Origin: Gavia stellata
Taxonomy: Eukaryota > Chordata > Aves > Gaviiformes > Gaviidae
NCBI RefSeq assembly: GCF_030936135.1
Contig: NC_082617.1
Location: forward strand, 3,654,001 to 3,718,000
Direction: 5' to 3'
Length of the DNA stretch: 64,000 bases
In this document: positions 25,241-49,467 of the stretch, piece by piece
Numbering within the stretch: position 1 is the stretch's first letter
Layout of the letters: the number at the start of each line of letters is the position of its first letter
The notes under the pieces: generated by a model
Told to the model about the DNA's origin: nothing
Seen by the model: the letters and a program-made list of their open reading frames with translations, nothing else
Database searches by the model: none
Translations under genes and position numbers: made by a program

Positions 25241-28200
25241 GTGAGTACGGCCCGGCCCGGTCCTGCCCTGCCCTGCCGCCGGGGGTGCGCGGCTGGCGGG
25301 CTGCCGCGGCGGCCTGAGGCGGCGGAGGGGCCTGGGCTGGCCTAGCCCGGCCCGGCTGCCTCAGGCCTCTCAGGCCCGGCCGCCTCAGGGGAGGGCGAGG
25401 AGCTGCTGGTGCGGCCCCGCCGAACACGGAGGCGCCGCCGGGGTGCGGGAGAAGGCCGAAGGCCCGCCCGGCCGTGTTGCCGCCGAGGGCCGCTCGGCAG
25501 CGCAGGGGGCGGAGGGAGCGGTGTCTGCGGGCCGCTGTGCCGGCGGGGATACCCGTGCCCCTGGGGAGGGGATGCAGGGCCCGCCTTGCTCAGGGTCTGC
25601 GAGCGGCGCCGGCAGCGCTGTGGGCCTCGCCGGTGAGAGCAGGGCCCAAGGGCAGAGCGGGGCAGTGGTGAGTGCAGTTGGGCTCCAGCGTTGGTCTGTG
25701 CCTCCGGAAACCTGTCTCCTGGGTGAAGGTATGGGAAGTGAAGTCGGGTGCACCCTGGCAGCAGTGGGGAACCTTGGTTCCGGTAGCTGGAGGTGCCTGC
25801 ACAGGTCTCAGAGGAGCTCAGTGACTCCTGGCCCAGCGGGACTGCTCCCTAGGAGGAGACCACCATCAAAACCCTGTCCTTCATGGCAGCAGGGTCTTCA
25901 GTTGGGGGATGCTTGTGCTTATCTGCATCTTACCTACTTCTAATTTTTTTTTCTTCTTGATGAGAACAGTGTATTTCCATGTTAGTGATTAGACATTTTG
26001 TAGAGCTGAGACAGCTACTCCTTGGGGAGCCAATTTAGCTTTTCCTGTTAGGTGAGAGAAATTTTGGTTACAAACATCCCCACCTTTACAAATTTTTCCT
26101 GCTTCAAGCATTTTTTTTTTTAAATGAGGCCACACTGTATTGCAGTTCTACCCCCTGACAGTTTTGTGAGAAGTAGACTGCTGTAGCTCACTCTAATGAT
26201 GATAACCTTGGACGGGAGGGTGTGGTGGAAAGTTCAAGAGGGGAAGTTGATGCAGTAGCCAGTTTTTCTATTGCTTGCACAATTGGTCTGAGACAAAACT
26301 AAGACTTAATGTTCTTTCTGCTGTGCTCTTTGGGATCATTCAGGGATGTTGCATACTTGCGTGAGCGAGGCCAGACCTGCACGTTGTCTAATGCATCCAT
26401 TGGCTCAGAGAACCTCTCCAGTTCTCGCTGGTGGAAGCTCATTGTGTGCTGAGCTTGGCAATGGTTCAGTGGCACACGGGGCGACTTCGTGCTCCGGAGG
26501 TCAGCTAACACAGCACAGCTGGAGGGGCTGCGAGGGCCTGCGGTGCCCTGCTGATGCCTCCTACAGAAGCAACTGCTGCAATAGCAAATGCTGCGGTGAT
26601 TGTTGTGCATCGGGTAGCTGGAGAGGTGTGGAGAAATACGCTCTCAATCCTTTCTTTTCTTTATTTCATTTGGTGTGTTCTTTGGAAACAGGGAAGAATC
26701 GGAGGCTGAAGCAGGCAAAAGAAGAAGCCCAGGCAGAGATTGAGCAGTACCGTCTGCAGAGGGAGAAGGAGTTCAAAGCCAAGGAAGCAGCGGTTTGTTT
26801 TCTAGATCATTCACTGTTACCTACTCAGCCCCTTAGCCTTGTGTTTGGGGTTACTTGCCCCGAGAGCAGCCCTTGGGGTGGAACGTGTTGGCGGAGGAGT
26901 ACTTCCCTAACTGCCTTCCTCTGATGCACAGCCACGTGTCACGGAAAAACCAGTGGAAGTGAATCAGAACATGGTGTATTGCATCTCAACAGCCAGAACT
27001 ATTGACTGGCAATGGATTAGCTTAATAATCTCATGTACTGGCTGGTGCCTTGAGGGGTGGCAGCCTCCCAAAACCAGCTGTATGTAGCAGTGTCAAAAAA
27101 GACCAAGCTCATTTCCCCCATGATAAGCTGGTTTCTACGATGCTCGCGTGGTAGAAGCTGGTTGCCTAGTGGATGCTGCTCTGTTGTTGAAGTAGTTGTA
27201 AGGCTTGTGTTCTGCTTAGCAGTGTTGCCTGCTGTGTCCCAAGGGGTGTGTTTTCCTTTCCTTCTGAGCAACAGGAGGTATTGCCAAAAGGCAGAACTGG
27301 GGCCCTTCACCAGCCGAGGGCTGTAGCACAGTTAGGATGTTTCCACTGCCTGTGTGCCTCTGTCAGTTCTGAAACTGTCAGAAAATGACCTGGCAACCCT
27401 CTCCTTTGTCCATCGTCTGGTTAGCACAATACCACCTCCTCTGTTCTCCTGCATAATAGCCTTCATGTCAGTAGGTCAAGATTAATTTTTTACAGTCAGT
27501 TGTTAGCTTGGTTCACTAGGCATATGGTACCTGGCAATTCCAGGCTAATAAAGTGGACTTCACTGGCTGTCAGCTGGTTCTGTTTTATTTATTCTTCTCC
27601 AGAGAGAGAAGCTCTCTGAATTTGAGTCCCAGAGTGCTAGTCTCCTTCAGCATACTTTTGCTGTGCCTTTTCCCCCCACTTATCATGGGAATTTGGTCTC
27701 TCTGCCCCTGCTTATGGGGCAAGAAGGGTCTTGTAAGCTGTGAGAAATTCCTTGCTGTGTGTATCACATGGCCCACAGTCCTGTTAGGAAGGCAGAGATT
27801 TTTATAAAGATTCTCAAAGGTTAGATGCAATGGGATGATGTGAAGACTGTGTTTAAACTAAATCATGGGTGTTACGTTTCTTACGTTATCTAGTACAGTA
27901 GTGCCCAGGGGTTCCCAGTTCCAGTCGCCAGTACATCAGGACCTTTATTTCAGGCACTCTTTAGAAGCCCATGCTCTAAACTGATGGATAATAAGTAAGA
28001 GAGGATGAAATAAAAACTTGGGCAAGTTTAGTGGGAAATCTGAGCAGAGAATCCAATGGTACTTTTTTTTTAGTGCAGTTCTTCCCTCAGCAAAGATTAA
28101 TGGTTGAGATGCAGTGAGACAGTCCAGAATAACAAAATCCAGAGGCAGGCATAGCGATTTCTTTCTCAAGCTACTTGCATGTGAGCTTTCTCTTTCCTTT

Positions 28201-28385
28201 GCTATTTGTAGGCACTTGGATCTCATGGCAGCTGCACCACTGAAGTTGAGAAAGAGACCCAGGAAAAGATGAGCGTGATCCAGCAGAACTTCCAGAAGAA
28301 CCGCGAGGTGGTCCTCTCCCAGCTGTTGTCGCTAGTGTGTGACATCAAACCTGAAATCCATGTGAATTACCGCATCAACGGGTAG
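25159..28385 (+). CDS. ATP6V1G1: V-type proton ATPase subunit G1 (three coding exons)
   Basis: Joined exons 25159-25240, 26692-26792 and 28212-28385 encode 118 residues, the same length as human ATP6V1G1. The protein starts MASQSQGIQQLLQAEKR and ends HVNYRING. Almost all of it is the V-ATPase G domain: a long charged helix (about residues 5-60) with QLLQAEKRA and QAKEEAQAEIEQYR, then a shorter C-terminal helical part. Subunit G pairs with subunit E to form the peripheral stalks that hold the V1 catalytic head against the membrane sector, allowing ATP-driven proton pumping into endosomes and lysosomes. Intron 1 is phase 1 and splits an arginine codon; intron 2 is phase 0. The second half (VIQQNFQKNREVVLSQLLSLV) is less like human than the first. 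The ATG is the first in the exon and sits in a CpG island. Both introns are about 1.4 kb with GT-AG ends. Confidence 0.97.
26692..26792 (+). CDS. ATP6V1G1: ATP6V1G1 coding exon 2
   Basis: Encodes residues 28-61 (RKNRRLKQAKEEAQAEIEQY through KEAA). The acceptor follows TTTGGAAACAG. The donor is GCG then GTTTGT, weak at +3 and +4 but placed exactly where the protein alignment requires (KEAA then ALGS). Confidence 0.95.
28212..28385 (+). CDS. ATP6V1G1: ATP6V1G1 coding exon 3 with stop
   Basis: Encodes residues 62-118, starting ALGSHGSCTTEVEKETQEK, and ends with TAG at 28,383-28,385. The acceptor is CTATTTGTAG. Confidence 0.95.
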   Translation, partial: ALGSHGSCTTEVEKETQEKMSVIQQNFQKNREVVLSQLLSLVCDIKPEIHVNYRING

Positions 28386-34523: not shown

Positions 34524-35634
34524 TTGCTCCTTGAATAGAGCATGGAAGGGCCTGGGGAGGTTTGGCAAATGCGTCTCAGAGCGGTGATGGCGGGGAGGTA
34601 AGGGATTATTTTGTCTAGAGACTCCATCACAGAATGGAGAAGTCTTGAAATAAATTAGAGGTTGTTTCAATGAGGACGGATGCTTAATTTTTCACTATAT
34701 TCACTGAGGATAGAATAAGTAATTGGATTCATTTGAACTGGGAAAGATTTAGTTTTTTACTACATTTTGATGGTTGAGGGGCTGTGGGTCCGATGGCTGC
34801 GGAGGCTCCAGCATCGCCAGCGCTGGAGTCCTGCTGTCCCCGTGTCCCGGGGTTGTGCGGTTGGGTTTTGTCCCCTCATAACTGTCAGCCCTGGCAGCTG
34901 GTTTCATCGTGTTGGAAGGAAGGGTGAGGTGGGGTGAAAGCATCCCTTCGTGAGAAGGCTGCAGTGGGAGCTCATCATTCAATTATCAGAGAGGTAAGAC
35001 CGGGAAGCAGGAAATAAGCAAAAAGCAAGTGAAGAAAGATAGGGAGACTTTGCAAATAGCTTTGCCATAGGTTTATGTTAAGTCAGGACTTGCTTCTTCA
35101 TACATACCAGTGAATGAAGGTCAAGACAAACCTCAATCTGCCTTAACTCTGATTTGTAAAACATATCCCCAAATCCCCTGCCAGCCGGCGCAAGCTGAAC
35201 GTACAGCTAACACGATGCTTCCCGGAGCAGAGAAGTCTGCATTTTCATTCACTGTCATTTCATTCATTCGCATTTCAATTTTTGGAAGACCTTCATTTTT
35301 AAACAGGGCCACTTTCAGAGGGTGTCAGCTGGGCTCCGTGGAACAGAAGCACCTTCAGTCTGCGCTGGGATCCTGCCAGCATCCTCTTTCTGTTTTACAG
35401 TCAAATAGTTTCTTATTTCTTGTGAGCCTTTGCCTCTCTCCAAATTTCTTTCTAGTTTACTGTTTGACTTTGTATTTGCTGTTAATTACTGTTCTCTGTG
35501 CTGGCTTTAAGAAGGTTAAATTTCTAATGCTCAAGTTTTGGTAGGGCCATTAATAGTGGGATAGGAATGTTACAGACACATCTTTGCATTTCAGAAGCCC
35601 AGCTATAAAGGCATACGTGCAAATACAATAGCAC

Positions 35635-35800
35635 ACAGAATCACAGAACGATTAAGGTTGGAAAAGACCTTTAAGATCATCAAGTCCAACCATCAACCCA
35701 ACCCCACCATGCCCACTAAACCACATCCCGCAGTGCCACGTCTACACATTTTTTTAACACCTCCAGTGATGGTGACTCCACCACCTCCCTGGGCAGCAGC
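35635..35800 (-). mobile_element. CR1 LINE retrotransposon, 5'-truncated 3' end
   Basis: The plus strand reads CACAGAATCACAGAACGATT, then AGGTTGGAAAAGACCTTTAAGA, TCATCAAGTCCAACC, a CCACGTCTACAC block, and CCTCCAGTGATGGTGACTCC followed by ACCACCTCCCTGGGCAGC. This is the reverse complement of the 3' end of a bird/reptile CR1, so the element points left, with its ATTCTGTG-type terminal octamers at about 35,635-35,650. The match stops near 35,800, so only about 165 bases of the 3' end remain; such 5' truncation is typical of CR1. It is non-coding and probably inactive. Its presence is the best taxonomic clue in the window. Confidence 0.92.
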
Positions 35801-37790
35801 TTATTGTCCAGCTAGAATCTAAAATGTGTTGTTTATTGGAATACATTAGTCATTGAATATTTTATAGACTATTCTGTGGGACCTGTGGCTACAGGATACC
35901 TCCTTGGATTGAGAAGATACCTGGCAGGATCTTGCCTGCCTAGCAAAAGCATCAAAATTATGCACCAAATATGATGATCAGAAAACTAACACCTGCCAAA
36001 AGTTTCTGAGCGCGTGGCTTAATGACTGCTGAAGTCAGGAAGAGTCGGGCTGGGAGACCTTGACTCCACACAACCCGACCTGCAGATCCATCATCTCCCT
36101 TGGGCCAGATCTGTGAGTTCAGGGAGGCGGCTGGGTGGAAAACAATCTCGGAAAAATACCTTTTTTCTTGCCTTCCATTTAGGTTAGTTTAAGCTGCCAT
36201 GGAGCTTCCTCCTCAGTTCCTTTGATAGGTGTGAAACAGATGCTTTGAAAACCTTCAGAGGGAAAGCCTGTCAGTCTAAAAGTTTCTAAAAATTTAATAG
36301 TGTGTGGCCTTTTTTGCTGCTTCAGAGCAGCAAAACTGGGATTGCTTTAAACTTGGAATTTTTCTTTTTTTTTTTTTTCTTTTCCCAACACCCCTCCCGG
36401 ATGAGCAGCATTTTTCTACTTGTGCTGATGGGATGAGGTGTTGATGCCAAGATCAGCCCACACACAGTCTTGCTAAACAAGAGGTGTACGGTGTACGCGC
36501 TGCAGGTAATCATCAGTGTTGCTTTCAAGTTTATTGCCCCCCCCGAGTTTTGCCTCAGGCGTTCTTTTGCAGTGAGCTGACAGTGCTCTTTCTAAGCACC
36601 TTGGTCGTCATATTCTCCCTCTGTCAGGATCCTTGCGTGGGCGAGAAGAAGTGGAAACGAAGCCAAAGCTTTTGATGAGGAGTGTTTGCAAAAGAACCTG
36701 AAGTTTTGCATGGCCCTATCTTGGGCGGGGATTTGAGTTGGGCCTTGAGCTAGTGACAACAGCAAGAAGATTTATCTGATTTTTCTCAATACCTGGACGA
36801 CGTTACTCTGTGAGCTGTATGCCAGTTTCCAGTGTAACAAGATCCCGTGTGGGTAAGTGGTTTTGAAGTCAGTTCTGTTCCTCGTGCAGCCACGTGATGT
36901 AATGACCACAGTGCTCAGCGATGTCTGGAGCAAGCAGGGTTGCAGAAATTCATCCCTCCAAGAGAACGGCATTTTCTCCAGGAAGTGTACACAGTGTATG
37001 CAGGCACTGCTGTGAAGCTTTTTTTTTTTTTTAAACTATTCACTAAGACTAACAGTCACTAAGATACTTGATTCACTCTGTTCCCAGCCTCCATGGATCC
37101 TCTAGCTTTTGGTGAGCCGTGAAACCATGATTCCCAGGCAAAGGAGTCTTCTCTCCTCTGGTGTCTCTCAGCCTTCTCTCTTTGCATGAAAGCGAATGAT
37201 TTCCCCAGCACGTGAAGCTGTTCTGGGGGGGTCTGTCTGACCGTGTCTCCGAGCCTACTGCTTTTCTTCAGAGTGCAGCAGCTGGAGAGGAAATTCGCAC
37301 CCGCCCTCCGTTATCAGCGCAGCCTCCTGTTTTGAGGGGGGTTACGGTTCCCTCCCTGCGCGTTATCCCTGTTTCTCTGTGCTTTAACATGCCCTTTTGC
37401 TGAACATACAGTCACCCGTTCTCAGCCTTGAGATCTTCATTCACCTCTTCTCATTTCTCCAGCCCTACCGTCGATGCGTAGCTTTCACTAATACATTCAA
37501 GGCAACTAATCTGACGCAACCTTGGGATTTGTACTTCGTGAGTCCTGCCCAGCTGATCGAGGAGGAGGAGGACAGCCTTCTGTCTGTGCCACTCTTCAGC
37601 TCTTCACGACCTTTAGGGTCCAGCTCCAAGTCTGGATCCCCACCCTGCAAAAGGTGAGCCTAGCTCCTGCGGCGGGATCTCCTCCCTTCGGTGGGAAAGC
37701 ACTTTTGAGGAACTCTAGAGGGTTAAAACCACGGTTCTGAAAGCAGCCTGGGGAAAAGTCACATGCACAAGGGAGATTTTGCAAGTTGGT
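35801..37790. other. Intergenic sequence between the CR1 fragment and TMEM268
   Basis: No gene was recognised. It holds T-tracts at about 36,361-36,379 and 37,020-37,032. CpG content rises gradually from about 37,200 towards the TMEM268 promoter. Confidence 0.5.
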
Positions 37791-41219: not shown

Positions 41220-41266
41220 TGAAGAGATGATGAGGATGGAGGACGTAGGTGGGAGCGAAGGGAAAG
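41220..41266 (+). CDS. TMEM268: TMEM268 coding exon 1 (coding from 41,227)
   Basis: The acceptor CCTGAGCAG ends at 41,219. Seven leader bases precede ATG ATG AGG ATG, and the exon reads MMRMEDVGGSEGK before a strong GTGAGT donor. It leaves one base, completed by AA from the next exon to give GKEPLNGQ, which aligns with human GQELHNGQ at the same phase. Confidence 0.78.
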
Positions 41267-44200
41267 GTGAGTGCACGCTGTGTTTGAGGCAGCACAGCGG
41301 TCTGGGAGAGCAGTGAGCAGGCGGTGTCGGGAGGAGCAGCCCAGGGGACACCTGGCTGACCCCGGATCTGCAAAGGGGAAGGAAAGCTGGGTGAAACGTT
41401 TCAGTGAAACAGGATCCCATCTGAACACGCCACTTCCTTAGACCCGAGCTCTTCCTCTTGACATAGCACAGCTTGTGTAAACTCTAGATGAATGCCAGAT
41501 GGGATGCCTGGAGATCACAGCTCTCCTGTGCCGCTCCAAGGCTGCTCTGCCTCAGCTCCGAGCAGCCGGCTCCTCAAATCTAGGGCAGGCTGTCCTCACA
41601 CTTTCTGGGCTCCTGACTGCAGCCTGGGTCTCTCGATTACATCTCTGACCCTAGCCCTAGCTGAAACTGGGAAGGTGGGAGCCCTGAGCAGAGCCATGCT
41701 GCCCAGCAGCACTGCGAGAGCGGGGACCTGGATGCTGGAGGATCTATGGAGCTCACGCTCCAGGGCAGCCCTGCCACGTCCCAGACAACGTGATTATTGG
41801 AAAGCACTTTGATTTGATTGCTTAAGCTTGTAGTGGGTGGGGTGAGTAGGCGATGGGGATCTCTCCAAGAGGCAGATAGCCTTAGGAACACCAAGCAGCT
41901 TGGGTCCATTGTCCTTTTAGTTAGGGATCAGTGAGGCAAGACATTACCCTGCTGAAGATCAGAGCATCATGTTATCTATGACTGCTCACTCCTAGAATGT
42001 GTTTGGGGTTTCCTCCCTTTTTGTAGGTTGTTTCCTTACAGGGGACATCAGGCTGCTGTGCTGCTTCCCAAGATCTTTGTGATGTTCTTAGAAATGTCCA
42101 AGGGGGGATTCTGGATCCATGTAAAACATGTCAGGGTGGTCTGCGTTCCTCAGCCTTCCCTTTGCCATGCGCTCCTCAGCTGCTGGGAGAAAAACACGTG
42201 CCAGAGCCGTGCTCATGACTCCTTTGGGCTCTTGCAGAACCCCTCAATGGTCAGGTGCTGATGGTGCTCAGCATGGACAACAACTGCTCAGCCACCTCCT
42301 TTGACATGGAGCTTTGTGCAGAGAAACTGAAGTCCCTTGGGGTTCAGGTAAGCTCCTCATGTGTGATCTCCCCTGCGGACCCTGTAGGAGTGAATGCTTG
42401 CTGGATTAGCATCATTTGCGTTTTACCTATATCACATACAGGTTTTTTGTTTTTTGTTGGGTTTTTTTTTGTTTGTTTTTTTTTTTTGTTTGAGTGGCTT
42501 GTTTCTGTTCAACATCAGTCTATTCCCCGTGGACTGCAAGTCAACTGTAATGATCTTGGCTTAAATCTCCACGAAGAAACCCATTCAACATAGGTTCGAG
42601 TGAATTGCTTGAAAGTCACTCTGATGGGATGGAGCGTCCCTGGGACAATCTGTCTTATCTTATCCTTTTGTCTTAAAAAGGTGACTTTCTCTTGTGACTT
42701 TCCCTGCACTTTCCAGGGAGACATTACTCACTGCAAATGAGGCAGCACACAAGTTTTTGGTCTGTGACAACTGTATGGATGAGATCAGAGGTGTGCTCTG
42801 CGGGAGGGTGCTCTGGGACACAGCTTTCAGTTGCAGTGCCAGCCTGGCCCCACGATGACTGCCCATGCCAGTTCTGGTGGGGATGGGAGCCCGAAACCGG
42901 AGGCTGGTCCTAGTTTGCTGTTTTCTCCCTGAGCAGGTGGCAGTGGATCAGTGGAGAAGGTTAATCCAGGATGCTGTCCTGAAGCCTGAAGTGAGACGGT
43001 ACATGTTCTACAACTCCAGGGCGTTCCAGATAGCCATCGCCGTGGTAAGGACAGTGGGGGCTCTCGCAGGCTTGCCATAGACACTCACTTGCTGAGATGC
43101 ATCAGGACCTATACCCGGGGTTCTTGTGCCCAGGGAAGGAGAGAGGTTTGGGTGGGGAGGAGATACTGGTTTTCACACATCCTAGTGGGCTCCTTTGGTA
43201 ATCCCAGTTCACAGAATTTCTGTAGTTGGAGGGTAAGGCACCTTCTCCAACCCCATGCTGGCAGTCCCACCGAAGCAGGCTGTCCATGGCTGGATAACAA
43301 GCATATGCTGAGGCAGTAGTACCTACATCAGACTTTTTTTTACCTTGATTTTAAAAATCTGTAGAAATTCTGGTCCTGATGCTAATTTAGACCAGTGGAT
43401 CAGTCAGCTTTGGCTACTGAGGTGATTGCCCAGTCTTGCTTGTCATCTTCTGGTGAGAGAAGCTCCTCCAGAGATCCCCACCATTAGCATCTACTGTGAG
43501 GCTGATACTTCGCAGTGTGCTGGGGGTGTGATAAAATTTGGCTCCTTCGTTTTACTTGCATTTATTTTTTTGGATAGCCATTATACATGTCTTCTCCTCC
43601 TTTCACTACTGTTGTAGGAATTGGTGCTCGGTGTTTTGAGGGTTTTGGTGCCTGTTTAGTGCAAATGAGTTATATTATTGCAAGATGATGTTGTGACACG
43701 CTGTGCTGTACATATCATATTTGCTTCTAGGCAATCTCCTGCTCAAATGCATGCTATCTGAGGTAAAGGCCAAATGAATTCAGTTTTGCCTGTCTTTATG
43801 CAAAGGCCAAGTTTGTCAGTCCTTAGCATAGTCCTTGAGCCCAGTGTCAGCGTCCTCCATTTGAGCATTGTTGTAAATGAGTAGTCTCTGCACCGCCTTG
43901 AGTGCTTTGACATAGGAGCTTTCTAAATACAGGGACTATTAGAAGTATTATCAATATGCCTCAGTGAGTGCATTTCTTATCTAAATGGAAGAACTCGGTT
44001 GAAATCCTTCCTAGGTATGAATTATGATTAATAATTCACACTCTGTCTTTGATGATTGGTAATTTTTTATAATAAACTAGGGCTCACTCAGTCCTCCTAG
44101 TCCTTTCTTTCCCCTATTTATTATTGGAAAGAATTTCTGTCCTTTCTCACCCTCTGAAGATCTTGTGTGACTTAATTTATGGTAAGGTATTACCCTGGGA

Positions 44201-47200
44201 GAAGGGACCAGTAGTTTTCTTCTTCCTGTGACCTTTCTCACTTCCATAATTTTGTGACTATCATCAGTCTCTCTGGGTTTTTCCAGGTTTTCTACATGTC
44301 TCTCTGGACAAACATTTACTCCACAGTCCAGCTGTGTTCCTTCGGACGCTACTGGGAGGCCAGCGTGCTGGTGACCCTGGCTGCCGTGGCGGTCACTGTA
44401 GTTGTGATACTGGTTATCGACCATCGCCAGAGGAAGGCAAGAGGAGGCTGCTTGTGTGTGGGCATGCAGTGCGTGGGGAGCAGGACTCCCTCCCACCAAA
44501 GTGCTGGGACCCAGGTCACCTCCTAGATGTGTACGAAGAAGATAATTATCCAGGGAGAAAGGAATATTTTTACAGCAGGCTCAGAGATTAGGTTCAGGCA
44601 AGGGATGTTTTACAGCCAAATTTGGTGTCGTAATGCCTAAAAAGTAGGTGCCGGAGCCTGGCAGGCTGGCTCATAGTGCCTGCTGTCACTGGAGATAAAG
44701 CAACCCTTGCAGAGCGTGGTTCGCGCTCCCACGGCTGGTGGGAGGCCACGGGGGCTCGCCAGCAGAGCTGGCTCCTGCCCTGCTTCTGATGACGGTCCTT
44801 GCAGTCTCGGCTGTGTGCAGCCATTCATAGCATCGTTCACTTGTGTCGCTGCGGTGCTCTGGACCTTGCAACAAGTCCAGAACAAAAAGGAAGCTCCTAA
44901 CCCATCGAAGTTGCAATAAAATTATAAAACCGGGGTAGACTGGGCTGTAGAAGGAAAAAGGGAGATGATGTTACATGAAAGGCCACCAGCCTGCAGCATC
45001 TACTGCTCGCTTGTTGTCAACTTCTGTTTGTAGGAATCACAGGAGTATGGAAATTTCTAAGGAGTGATCTGAAGAATAATATTGGAAAGGCTTGATTCAA
45101 AATCCAGAAGGGGTCTTTGCACTGATTTTAATGGATTTTGGAGCAAGCCTCTAATGACAGCTGTGCAATCATTCTTCCAAAGGGAAACCTGACAAACGTG
45201 TGGGTGCACAGAGGTTTAGGAAAGGAGTCCTTCACTCAGGGACTGCTGGGGAAGGAAGAGAGAACATGATACTGGAAGTGGATTCTACTTCAGACATCTT
45301 GTCTATAAGAGAAAGAATCTTTAGCGAGGTTTCTGGCTGCACAGACATCTGCTAGCTGTGGCTAGGCCAGTACTGACGGCTGGTGACAATTCTGCCTGAC
45401 TGCAGACTGCTCTTGCCACTGCTTTCCTTTCAGAGACCCAGCATTTGGGATTCTCCAGCTGCAGTTTGTACCTGTAGGCTGGCCCAACTTTTGCTGTAGA
45501 GTGTGTTAATTTTTCCTGCATTCTTTAATAGATTAATATGAATACAGATGTGAGGCTGGCAGCTGTCAATGAGATCTTTATCAAACACCGTTTAATACTG
45601 GGGATTACAGATGTCCTGGATGGGCCACACAACATCCTGCAAGTATCCTTTCTGTAGAGAATCATTTATACCCCTCCTGGGTAGCTAATGATGTGGAGGT
45701 ATTTATCGATGTTATGATCCATGAGGATTTCCAGTGGGTGGGATTTCTAGGATTTGTTTTTTCTCCTGTTGGATGGCATGAGGGATGGTGTATTTCTTCT
45801 CCTCTAAGTGGGGATTGAGATATGCCCAAAGGCAATTGGAAATAATGAGTCTAAAAGATTGAAGTGGGATTAGTCCTTTGGGCAGGCAATTATTCCTGAA
45901 AGTGTATTATACTTACATGACAATGATGATTCTTATTATGAGCAGAGTGACAGCAATGTGCCTATGGCAAAAACCACCAAACAACACGAAGAAAACCGGA
46001 GTCCCTGTCCCTGGGAGCTCATGTTCTGCCTTGCAGAGACAAACTAAGCCAACAGCATCCAAGTGCCTCTGCTCTCCGGGTGATTTGTAGCCCTGGGCTC
46101 CCTCCTTCAGGCATGTTGGAGAACTTGATTTCACGGGGTGCGTCCCCGGCAGCCAGGTCTGTAGCTGCCAAGCACTTCTGACCTTCCCAGCCTCTTAAAA
46201 GTACGGGTTGAAGAAAGCAGGTGGGGCGAGGCTCACTTTGCTGCTTTTTAGAGATACATTTTCTGGACTAGACAAAGATTTAGGGGAAAGAAGAGAGTTT
46301 TAAGACAGTATGAAAGTGTTAAAGGAAGGTGAGAGAGATGGTCTCCCAGATTTGCTGGTGGACCTCACCCCCTCCCATATATTCAGAGAGGTATGAGATT
46401 AGAAATGGAGAAGGAGCCAAGGCTGAAACACAGAGTCAGAGAAGGGGGCAGGGAATACTGCAGGAGGGCTGGCAGGGGTGAAGTCATGCAGAATAAGGAG
46501 AACCTGAATTACACGTTTGTTCAGACCAGCATAGTTTTGCACTTCAGTAAGTGAGGACTAATCCAAAGAACCTTCATCTCTACCTACTTGTCCCAGAACT
46601 GCCTGAAAGCAGAAAACAACCCAAGGATTTACAATTTCTCTGTCTGCTCCAATGTCAGATTCGTTTCAACCCTCTAGCATCTACACTGTTCCTGAATCCC
46701 CTTGACGATGGCAGCTTGAGTAGATATACAAGGGCAGACCTTTGGCTGCCTTCTGGGGGGCTGCTGCTCTCAAAGCTGGCAGGACTCACATCCCCAAGAC
46801 ATTGCTCTTGGTAGACTCTTTGCAAACAGTGCCTCCGTCTTGAAGACAAGCACTAAAGACAGTAAATTTTGTAAAAAAATAAATGGAATGAATCCCTAGA
46901 AACAAAGGAAAGAAAGCAGGAAGGTGTTTAAGGGAGCTAAGTCAAGGTGGCCAACCGGTTTATTTAGATGTAAGGCCACTGAGATGAGTGATGGGCAATG
47001 GCCCTGGGTTATCCCAGTTTTCACCCTGCCCAGGGTGCAGGAGGTGTGCAAGGAGGACTGGCTGCCCTCTGGGGCAATGTGCCCCTTCCCTGCCACGCCT
47101 CTTCTCTTTACCTTGAGGTTTTGCCTTAGCCCAGACCCTCTTGGCTTAAAATTAACCCTGCGATGTGTTATTTGGTTCCTGAGCATCCCGTGGGTACCAC

Positions 47201-49467
47201 CTGCCTTTGCTCTTCTTCCTGTGAGGTGTGATCCACATGGAGGCGAAAGGCTGTGGAGGGGGAAGCGTGGAAAGACCCCTTCCTTAACCCTGCCCGTCCC
47301 AGCTGTGGTTTGTGCACTTCAGCCCGGAGCGCTGCCTCCAGTCCTTGTCAGCCCACATCACGGACCTGCAGAGGACACGCGAGGTAAGTGACGGCAGATG
47401 CAGCCCAAGCTCCTGCAGTGACACGTGCAGGTCCATCCCTACGCCCCGGCTTTGGTGGGATGGAGGTGGGCAAGGAGAACTGAGTGTTTGAGTGTCCTCC
47501 TGGGCATCCCCTGCTGTGAACTGGGAGCTGGACAGGCTGGGAGGTGGATAAACTGCATCTGTCGGTGCCCAGTCCAGCAGGACCTGTGGTACGTGCATGT
47601 CTGGATAATTAACCATGCAACTTTAAAAAGGAAAGTCATCGAGAATCAAGGGCAAATTTTGAAAGCATGTGTCACAACTTGAAATAGCTGACACCTTGAG
47701 CTGTCCTCCTGAAATAAATGGGATAGCCTGAGGAATAAGTAAGCACTGTACTGGGTTAACTGTATAAAAATTTTGTCCTCTTGGCCTTCAGAAAATGTTT
47801 TCCTCTATGCGGGTGTATAAATATACCAACACCGCGCTCTCCTGCACTGAATTGTCCTTGCTGGTCACAGCTGTGGGGTGAGAGGTGAGGGGGTACAACC
47901 CTCTGAAAATCTCAAGGCTGCTTGAGATGAACCAACAGACACAGATCAGGGGATGGACAGTAACGCACCCATTCACCTGTCGGCTGATAGAACTCGTATA
48001 GTTTTTAAGGACAAGATTCTCCGTGCCAGGCTGTGACCATCATGCTGGGAGCAGTTGCCGGCACAAGAGGCAGCTGATGGCAGCGGGGCTGTGGGTTGAA
48101 GATACTCAGCTCCAAGTGCTGGACACGGCTTTTGGCCAATGCTGTTTTTGACTCTTGGGATGATAACTCCCAGGAGTAAAAAACGTGCAGGAGGAAATCA
48201 TGTGCTTTAAAGGCTGCCCTCAGGACAGCACTCCTGCCTGCCTTTGGACACCCCCAAAATCTCTTTCTCTTCCAGTCGGGCTTGCGGCACAGCCTGGACC
48301 AGCTCTGTGTGGTTATGGAGGCGGCGGTTCAGCCTGACCCGGGGACGGAGGAGGAGGCTTCGTGTGAAGAGTCCCCTCTTTTATCCAGTGGGGTGAACCT
48401 AAATAAAGAGCCTGTGACATGCAACGAGCTGCTCCGCCTCGTGCCCGAAGGCCCACCGGAGGTAATGAGAAATATCCCTCCCCGATGGATGGAGGTGCCG
48501 AATCACCTCCCCAGGCACCTTGACCCCAAAACTCGTCCCAGCAGCCACCAATCATGGGGACACCTCCTTTTTCACCAGTAGGAGCACCTGGAAGCCTGGA
48601 GGTCCACACACACCTTCTCCAGCCCTGGCACTGCTGAGCAGTTAATACTCACTGAGCAGCTAGCGCTTAATCCTTGAGGAATTCACGGATTAGGCTTTTC
48701 CTTGTTGGTGGCTGGGAGTCCCCATTTGGAAGCCAACCTCTCCCCAGGGTCCGTGCAGGGACCCAGCACCTGTGTCTGAGCTGGGGATGAGGCATGGCCA
48801 TGCCCAGCCTTTGTCTCCTCCACGGAGCGCCTTCAAAGACTTGTGCCACGCTGAGCAACAAATGTGTCCTCATTCCCGCTCAGCAAGGAGCTTCAAAAGG
48901 GATGATTTTGATTTATTTTACAGTTTTCTTCTCGCTGTTACTAAGCGAATTCGGTGCAGGTGACATCCCTGCAGGTTGAAGGTCTCTGGCTGTCTACAGG
49001 CAAACAAAAGCACCAGGAGGCAGTGACGGAGCAGGCAGGTCCCCAAGCAGCCTGGCTCCCCGGCCACCCACCGGCGAGCAGTCATTTCTTGTCACTCCCC
49101 CCTGGGGACAGTGTGCCAGCACTGCTGACCAAAAGGGGATCTGGGACAGTTATATATGCCATTGGCTCCTGTCCTGTTTCTTCAGCTGAGGACAGTCCTT
49201 GAATGAGGGAGCAAATGGTATTTAGTGTATCATCCACTCTTCCTGCAGGTAGATGCTCTGCTCTGACACCTCTCGTGCTCGTTCCAGGTGATGGCCCAGC
49301 AGCTCCTGGTGATCTTCAGTGGATGCTACGTCCGGCTCCTGGTCACTGGCCGGCTCCCTCGGGCCGTGGCACAGGGGCACCTGGAGCACAGCAACGTGCC
49401 CTGTCTATGCCAGTTCATTGAGACCACCGCGCTGGACACACACCAGAGCTGTTTCACGGGCAGGTGA
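41227..49467 (+). CDS. TMEM268: Transmembrane protein 268 (C9orf91 family), eight coding exons
   Basis: Joined exons 41227-41266, 42238-42347, 42937-43044, 44287-44436, 45532-45642, 47303-47383, 48276-48461 and 49288-49467 give 321 residues (human 342). Conserved landmarks are LNGQVLMVLSMDNNC (16-30), PEVRRYMFYNSR (67-78), NTDVRLAAVNE (140-150), LWFVHF (174-179), QLCVVME (209-215) and CYVRLLVTGRLPRA (275-288). Two hydrophobic helices, about 80-101 and 111-130, are joined by a short loop; the rest is probably cytosolic. There is no signal peptide. The family's biochemical role is poorly known and I assign none. The protein is shorter than human mainly at the N-terminus (14 against about 37 residues before LNGQ/HNGQ). 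ATGs at 41,227, 41,230 and 41,236 compete; the third has the best context (AGGATGG). Two introns are non-standard: GC-AG after exon 4 and U12-type after exon 5. Confidence 0.93.
42238..42347 (+). CDS. TMEM268: TMEM268 coding exon 2
   Basis: Encodes residues 14 (part) to 50, including NGQVLMVLSMDNNCSATSFD. The acceptor is GGGCTCTTGCAG and the donor GTAAGC. Confidence 0.93.
42443..42490. repeat. T-rich simple repeat in a TMEM268 intron
   Basis: T-runs broken by G (T6G, T6G, T9G, T12G) between coding exons 2 and 3. On the minus strand it is A-rich, but no retrogene body is attached. Confidence 0.7.
42937..43044 (+). CDS. TMEM268: TMEM268 coding exon 3
   Basis: Encodes residues 51-86, VAVDQWRRLIQDAVLKPEVR through FQIAIAV. 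The last residues begin the first membrane helix. Both ends are phase 0, with acceptor CCTGAGCAG and donor GTAAGG. Confidence 0.95.
44287..44436 (+). CDS. TMEM268: TMEM268 coding exon 4, two membrane helices, GC donor
   Basis: Encodes residues 87-136, VFYMSLWTNIYSTVQL through LVIDHRQRK. It completes the first helix and contains the second (ASVLVTLAAVAVTVVVILVI). The end is set by alignment (RK then INMNTD, human KK then ANTNTD) and falls before GCAAGA, so the donor is GC. Reading through would add 29 unrelated residues and stop at 44,526. Confidence 0.92.
44437..45531 (+). other. TMEM268: TMEM268 intron with GC-AG ends
   Basis: The donor is GAAG then GCAAGA and the acceptor TTCTTTAATAG. GC donors are a small minority of vertebrate introns and need strong exon-side pairing; here AAG before and AAG at +3 to +5 give it. 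No GT within 10 bases keeps both the frame and the alignment. Confidence 0.85.
45532..45642 (+). CDS. TMEM268: TMEM268 coding exon 5
   Basis: Encodes residues 137-173, INMNTDVRLAAVNEIFIKHR, then LILGITDVLDGPHNILQ. It is preceded by a GC-AG intron and followed by a U12-type intron. Both boundaries are phase 0 and agree with the human protein. Confidence 0.93.
45643..47302 (+). other. TMEM268: TMEM268 U12-type (minor spliceosome) intron
   Basis: The intron begins GTATCCTTT, the exact U12 donor consensus, and contains TTCCTTAAC at 47,280-47,288, the exact U12 branch-point consensus, about 15 bases before the acceptor CCCGTCCCAG. It lacks a U2-type long polypyrimidine tract, and as a U2 donor (CAA then GTATCC) it would be poor. 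This therefore reads as a GT-AG U12 intron spliced by U11/U12/U4atac/U6atac. Confidence 0.92.
47303..47383 (+). CDS. TMEM268: TMEM268 coding exon 6
   Basis: Encodes residues 174-200, LWFVHFSPERCLQSLSAHIT through LQRTRE. The donor is a strong GTAAGT. Confidence 0.95.
48276..48461 (+). CDS. TMEM268: TMEM268 coding exon 7
   Basis: Encodes residues 201-262, with QLCVVMEAAV, an acidic variable middle (TEEEASCEES) and ELLRLVPEGPPE. The acceptor is TCTCTTCCAG and the donor GTAATG. Confidence 0.94.
49288..49467 (+). CDS. TMEM268: TMEM268 coding exon 8 with stop
   Basis: Encodes residues 263-321, VMAQQLLVIFSGCYVRLLVT onwards, and ends SCFTGR before TGA at 49,465-49,467. The C-terminus keeps the NVPCLCQFIE block that corresponds to human RIPCPCQLIE. 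Confidence 0.95.
   Translation: MMAQQLLVIFSGCYVRLLVTGRLPRAVAQGHLEHSNVPCLCQFIETTALDTHQSCFTGR

Follow-up and report, generated by a model that had tools for sequence, protein, structure and literature searches.

The window, that is, the whole 64-kb stretch of DNA that was analyzed, spans positions 3654001 to 3718000 of its contig in a genome of 1.32 Gb. It contains the gene TMEM268 and, upstream of it, two exons that encode parts of a V-ATPase G subunit, probably that of ATP6V1G1: one at positions 26685 to 26795 (PF03179) and, as judged by eye, one at about 28213 to 28385. A stretch at positions 35633 to 35810 resembles the tail of a CR1 LINE; these LINEs are typical of birds, and together with the genome size the repeat suggests that the DNA is avian.

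By reading the splice signals together with the reading frame, a TMEM268 model of eight coding exons, all on the plus strand, was obtained, encoding a protein of 321 residues. Exon 1 (41227 to 41266), whose start codon was picked through the reading frame, comprises 13 codons plus one base and ends in phase 1; lying outside the Pfam profile, it is the least certain exon of the model. Exons 2 (42238 to 42347) and 3 (42937 to 43044) were delimited by splice signals and frame and match PF14800, as do exon 4 (44287 to 44436), which looks hydrophobic and transmembrane-like by eye, exon 7 (48276 to 48461), and exon 8 with the stop codon (49288 to 49467). Exons 5 (45532 to 45642, 111 nt) and 6 (47303 to 47383, 81 nt) have both ends in phase 0. 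Residues 17 to 307 of the protein align in one stretch with positions 2 to 293 of the 293-position profile DUF4481 (PF14800), with an E value of 5e-122. Since 291 residues are thereby placed on 292 positions, the alignment contains a gap, which probably lies inside exon 7, because this exon alone places 65 residues on 66 positions. A search of the genome with the PF14800 profile, in which 10 candidates were scored, gave six matches, all of them TMEM268 exons (2, 3, 4, 5, 7, and 8), and exon 6 by itself was absent from these six. According to an excerpt of PMC6748091, the human gene comprises nine exons and its protein 342 residues; nine exons would fit eight coding exons plus one 5' noncoding exon.

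Splice signals and exon junction of intron 5

Coding intron 5 (45643 to 47302, plus strand) is a GT-AG intron of 1,660 nt in phase 0, assigned to the U12 type on its motifs and on the exon junction given by Pfam. The donor context is CAA/GTATCCTTT (the slash marks the splice boundary), and the 5' splice site GTATCCTTT (45643 to 45651) agrees with the U12 donor RTATCCTT(T) at all positions. Close to the 3' end, the branch-point sequence TTCCTTAAC (47280 to 47288) matches the U12 branch consensus TTCCTTRAY, with the A at 47286 or 47287 as the candidate branch nucleotide. The 3' splice site (47301 to 47302), in the context CCCAG/CTG, is the earliest AG downstream of the branch motif. On both strands of the 64-kb window, RTATCCTTT and TTCCTTAAC have one perfect copy each. 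Counted from the second A of the branch motif (47287), the intron ends 15 nt further on, at 47302, a spacing that falls within the windows scanned by published U12 classifiers. The first-pass annotation had placed both motifs and the AG at these coordinates, had claimed agreement with the consensus at every position, and had put the spacing at about 15 bases; the coordinates were recovered base for base, the donor scored 7/7 and the branch 9/9, and the spacing agreed. From such a perfect consensus, a trained classifier (intronIC, Sheth rules) should return a near-top score. Upstream of the AG, the last 20 nt are C rich, with 16 pyrimidines and 5 T, and therefore the lack of a polypyrimidine tract is not claimable for this intron.

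The exon junction (ILQ, then LWF) had been fixed previously by alignment to the human protein, and the DUF4481 profile, used without the human sequence, led to the same answer. When aligned alone, exon 5 covers profile positions 122 to 158 (49.6 bits), and exon 6 covers positions 159 to 183 with 18.1 bits, a score that falls below the 25-bit cutoff, as the piece is so short. Joined, the two exons place 62 residues on 62 positions (122 to 183) with 83.4 bits, and the junction reads NILQ/LWFVHF in phase 0 after codon 173.

Intron 5 in comparison with other introns and with chance

The other six introns of TMEM268 are U2-type GT-AG or GC-AG introns of the same transcript, and they differ from intron 5 in several respects. 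Matches to the U12 donor at positions +3 to +9 were 0, 3, 1, 1, 7, 1, and 1 of 7 for introns 1 to 7, respectively, and the best branch matches, between about -55 and -5, were 5, 5, 7, 6, 9, 5, and 6 of 9, so that none of the six has a branch motif above 7/9. Their donors are GTGAGT, GTAAGC, GTAAGG, GCAAGA, GTAAGT, and GTAATG, and their lengths range from 589 to 1,242 nt, compared with 1,660 nt for intron 5. Their final 20 nt hold 14 to 16 pyrimidines and 6 to 12 T (16 and 5 in intron 5). Moreover, predicted pairing with the 5' end of U1 was weakest for the intron 5 donor among the seven (-3.4 versus -4.8 to -11.8 kcal/mol). Intron 4 (44437 to 45531, plus strand), immediately upstream, is a GC-AG intron (AAG/GCAAGAGG) of the major type by sequence, and thus exon 5 is bordered by two uncommon splice-site classes.

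With vertebrate U12-type GT-AG introns, intron 5 shares the donor, the branch point, the terminal dinucleotides, and its position as a lone minor intron among major ones. Nothing categorical separates it from them, although its spacing is 2 nt above the optimum and phase 0 is less usual.

The one positive control was the minor intron of PTEN, which we take to be intron 1; its sequence in this genome was located through exons 1 and 2, and its motifs and spacing were counted by eye. PTEN is accepted as a carrier of a minor intron (PMC3728624, in excerpt). Here, its donor is T/GTATCCTCC and its branch is TTCCCTAAC, 13 nt from the last base. Both introns have a GTATCC donor, a TTCCYTAAC branch, and a short spacing. 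The PTEN intron scored 5/7 at donor positions +3 to +9 and 8/9 at the branch, with a spacing of 13 and T at -1, whereas the corresponding values for TMEM268 intron 5 were 7/7, 9/9, 15, and A; intron 5 is therefore closer to the consensus than the control in its motifs and further off in its spacing. By eye, a perfect TTCCTTAAC was also seen past exon 2, a short way into the next PTEN intron, whose donor is of the major type; a U12 intron thus cannot be proven by its branch motif alone.

The chance expectation was derived from 1,000 dinucleotide-preserving shuffles of the window (2,000 strands). Each motif alone is unremarkable, because 0.35 perfect GTATCCTTT and 0.50 perfect TTCCTTAAC are expected per shuffled window, counting both strands. 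The two perfect motifs in the right order, with TTCCTTAAC no more than 5 kb after GTATCCTTT and 3 to 20 nt before an AG, occurred on 5 of the 2,000 shuffled strands; this control ignores exon boundaries, on which both ends of the real intron fall in a coding gene. The joint chance is small, in line with the earlier claim that such an agreement is very unlikely to be accidental.

Next to these comparisons, the genome itself was found to carry the genes of four minor-spliceosome snRNAs: U11 (111 bits), U12 (150 bits, plus a weaker copy of 91), U4atac (83 bits), and U6atac (134 and 126 bits, plus two weaker ones of 49 and 35). The weaker U12 copy (C3:37960276-37960445) has an altered start and a long A-rich run at its end, like a retrocopied pseudogene. 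Exons of PDCD7 (U11-59K), the only minor-specific protein sought, were also present, the best with 95 bits. Positions +4 to +9 of the intron 5 donor pair at 6/6 positions with nucleotides 8 to 3 of this genome's U11, including one U-G pair, and the donor pairs at 6/6 with AAAGGA of its U6atac; in both cases, the other introns reached 0 to 2. The branch pairs at 8/8 with GUAAGGAA of its U12, leaving the second A bulged, compared with 2 to 7 for the other introns. These in-register counts restate the match to the consensus and are thus not independent of it. Free, unregistered duplex energies did not single out intron 5, either with the 5' end of U11 (-5.6; intron 2, -7.4) or with the U12 segment (-7.6; introns 1 and 4, -9.5 and -9.7), and they were rejected as an intron classifier, since they gave no discrimination among the seven introns.

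Classification of intron 5 and alternative explanations

Taken together, the donor, the branch point, the exon junction, the weakest U1 pairing, and the four minor snRNAs of the genome support the U12 reading of the first-pass annotation, and intron 5 is almost certainly a genuine U12-type GT-AG intron. Several features count against this reading, among them the pyrimidine-rich 3' end and the free duplex energies described above. The spacing of 15 nt exceeds the optimal branch-to-3' distance of 11 to 13 nt (PMC3584512, in excerpt), and phase 0 is the rarer phase, which accounts for 22% of minor introns on average (PMC10639083, in excerpt). In addition, T is over-represented at -1 of U12 introns according to the excerpt of PMC7367187, and intron 5 has A there. 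As for the two last exon bases, AG at -2/-1 is described in part of PMC10853781 as a mark of introns misclassified as U12, and the exon upstream of intron 5 ends in AA, i.e., not AG; in the same excerpt, AA occurs in one of eight misclassified introns, where the branch motif is poor.

It is very improbable that the major spliceosome uses these same sites and that the U12-like motifs are relics or products of chance. The GT-AG ends of intron 5 and the C-rich run of 16 pyrimidines in the 20 nt before its AG would suit that explanation, but TCC at +4 to +6 and A at -1 depart from the major-type consensus, and of the seven donors this one pairs least stably with U1. Moreover, both motifs are intact throughout, which is unexpected in a relic, and the shuffled strands leave little room for a joint chance occurrence. 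Even less credible is a true junction at other nearby splice sites, or a dual 3' site, as in CENATAC, that a major-type donor also uses: GTs with stronger U1 pairing do lie downstream at 45681, 45693, 45699, 45734, and 45738, another in exon 5 at 45550 (-4.9) would cut 93 nt in frame, and dual sites are known, though rare (PMC10853781, in excerpt), but all the downstream GTs lie past an in-frame TAG at 45655 to 45657, the donor at 45550 would cost 31 residues of the conserved profile, and the pair 45643/47302 places 62 residues on 62 profile positions.

Predicted splicing of TMEM268 and its relevance

As a U12-type intron, intron 5 would have its GTATCCTTT recognized by the U11 snRNP, while the U12 snRNP would pair with TTCCTTAAC and leave a bulged A as the branch nucleophile. 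At the donor, U6atac would then take the place of U11, and the codons for NILQ would be ligated by the minor spliceosome to those for LWFVHF. From the established knowledge of this intron class, it is very likely that TMEM268 output depends on the minor spliceosome.

Two outcomes could be expected where minor splicing is limiting. First, intron 5 may be retained, in which case read-through of the donor (ILQ VSFL) would meet the in-frame TAG (45655 to 45657, plus strand) after VSFL; the last 148 of the 321 residues would be lost, and the mRNA would perhaps decay. In the excerpt of PMC8034651, premature-stop isoforms arising from minor-spliceosome inhibition escaped nonsense-mediated decay, so decay of the retained TMEM268 mRNA is not to be presumed. 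Second, we predict that exons 5 and 6 may be skipped together, with the major spliceosome pairing the donor of intron 4 with the acceptor of intron 6. In other genes, inhibition of the minor spliceosome is reported to make the major spliceosome skip one or both flanking exons (PMC8034651, in excerpt). This skip preserves the frame, because the two exons measure 111 and 81 nt, and in silico it gave a product of 257 residues with no internal stop and with 64 DUF4481 residues deleted. The finding on intron 5 is mostly a clean annotation, and this in-frame double-skip product is its specific prediction.

Among the listed titles of papers that mention TMEM268, C9orf91, or D630039A03Rik, the mouse name of TMEM268, none dealt with minor introns. 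TMEM268 was likewise absent from the main text of PMC6717393, PMC10639083, and PMC8034651. No publication pairing TMEM268 with a U12-type intron or with intron retention was found in a search that covered text outside supplements; as lists of U12 genes sit in supplements, these negative results do not show that intron 5 is uncatalogued. For U12DB, 398 chicken and 691 human introns are mentioned in PMC7367187 (in excerpt), and with several hundred U12-type introns per vertebrate genome, another one is unsurprising. According to part of PMC10853781, the majority of effective U12 sites in human are probably known by now. Intron 5 is thus a further case of a familiar intron class and is possibly already catalogued. 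A human counterpart is plausible, since the excerpt of PMC10639083 quotes conservation in chicken for 94% of the minor introns of human. A study of prostate cancer (PMC10623736, in excerpt) lists intron retention in human C9orf91 at 9:114637070-114638544, which may be either the orthologous intron or another one.

The orthologous junction was also sought in viral and in prokaryote contigs, with one scan each, and two loci matched. In the viral contigs, 12 stretches fitted the pattern and 1 was confirmed (L016), with 19 junction-spanning residues at 74% identity; in the prokaryote contigs, 71 stretches fitted and 1 was confirmed (L017), with the same 19 residues at the same 74% identity. L016 was rejected as an orthologue, because the match lies in a frame full of stops and overlaps another open frame in a contig that resembles a phage, and L017, given the same residues and identity, was set aside as similar to L016.

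Regarding function, human TMEM268 binds ITGB4 through residues 104 to 342, according to an excerpt of PMC6748091, and retention of intron 5 would cut into this binding part. In mouse, TMEM268 knockout reportedly suppresses anti-infectious responses through CD11b signaling (PMC11169502, in excerpt). Given these ties to ITGB4 and CD11b, TMEM268 with a minor intron would be a candidate responder in minor-spliceosome diseases. We regard as improbable the further proposal that TMEM268 is unlisted as a minor-intron gene and that its U12 intron places epithelial and phagocyte ITGB4 and CD11b signaling under minor-spliceosome control (e.g., through p38-regulated U6atac), switching among a full-length form, a retained form that is truncated or decayed, and a form that lacks exons 5 and 6 but stays in frame.

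A further possible isoform concerns intron 2, which ends in GAGCAG (42931 to 42936), a tandem acceptor. Use of its first AG would insert a Q, like that of the human TMEM268 variant v2, which has an additional Q after I71 (PMC6748091, in excerpt).
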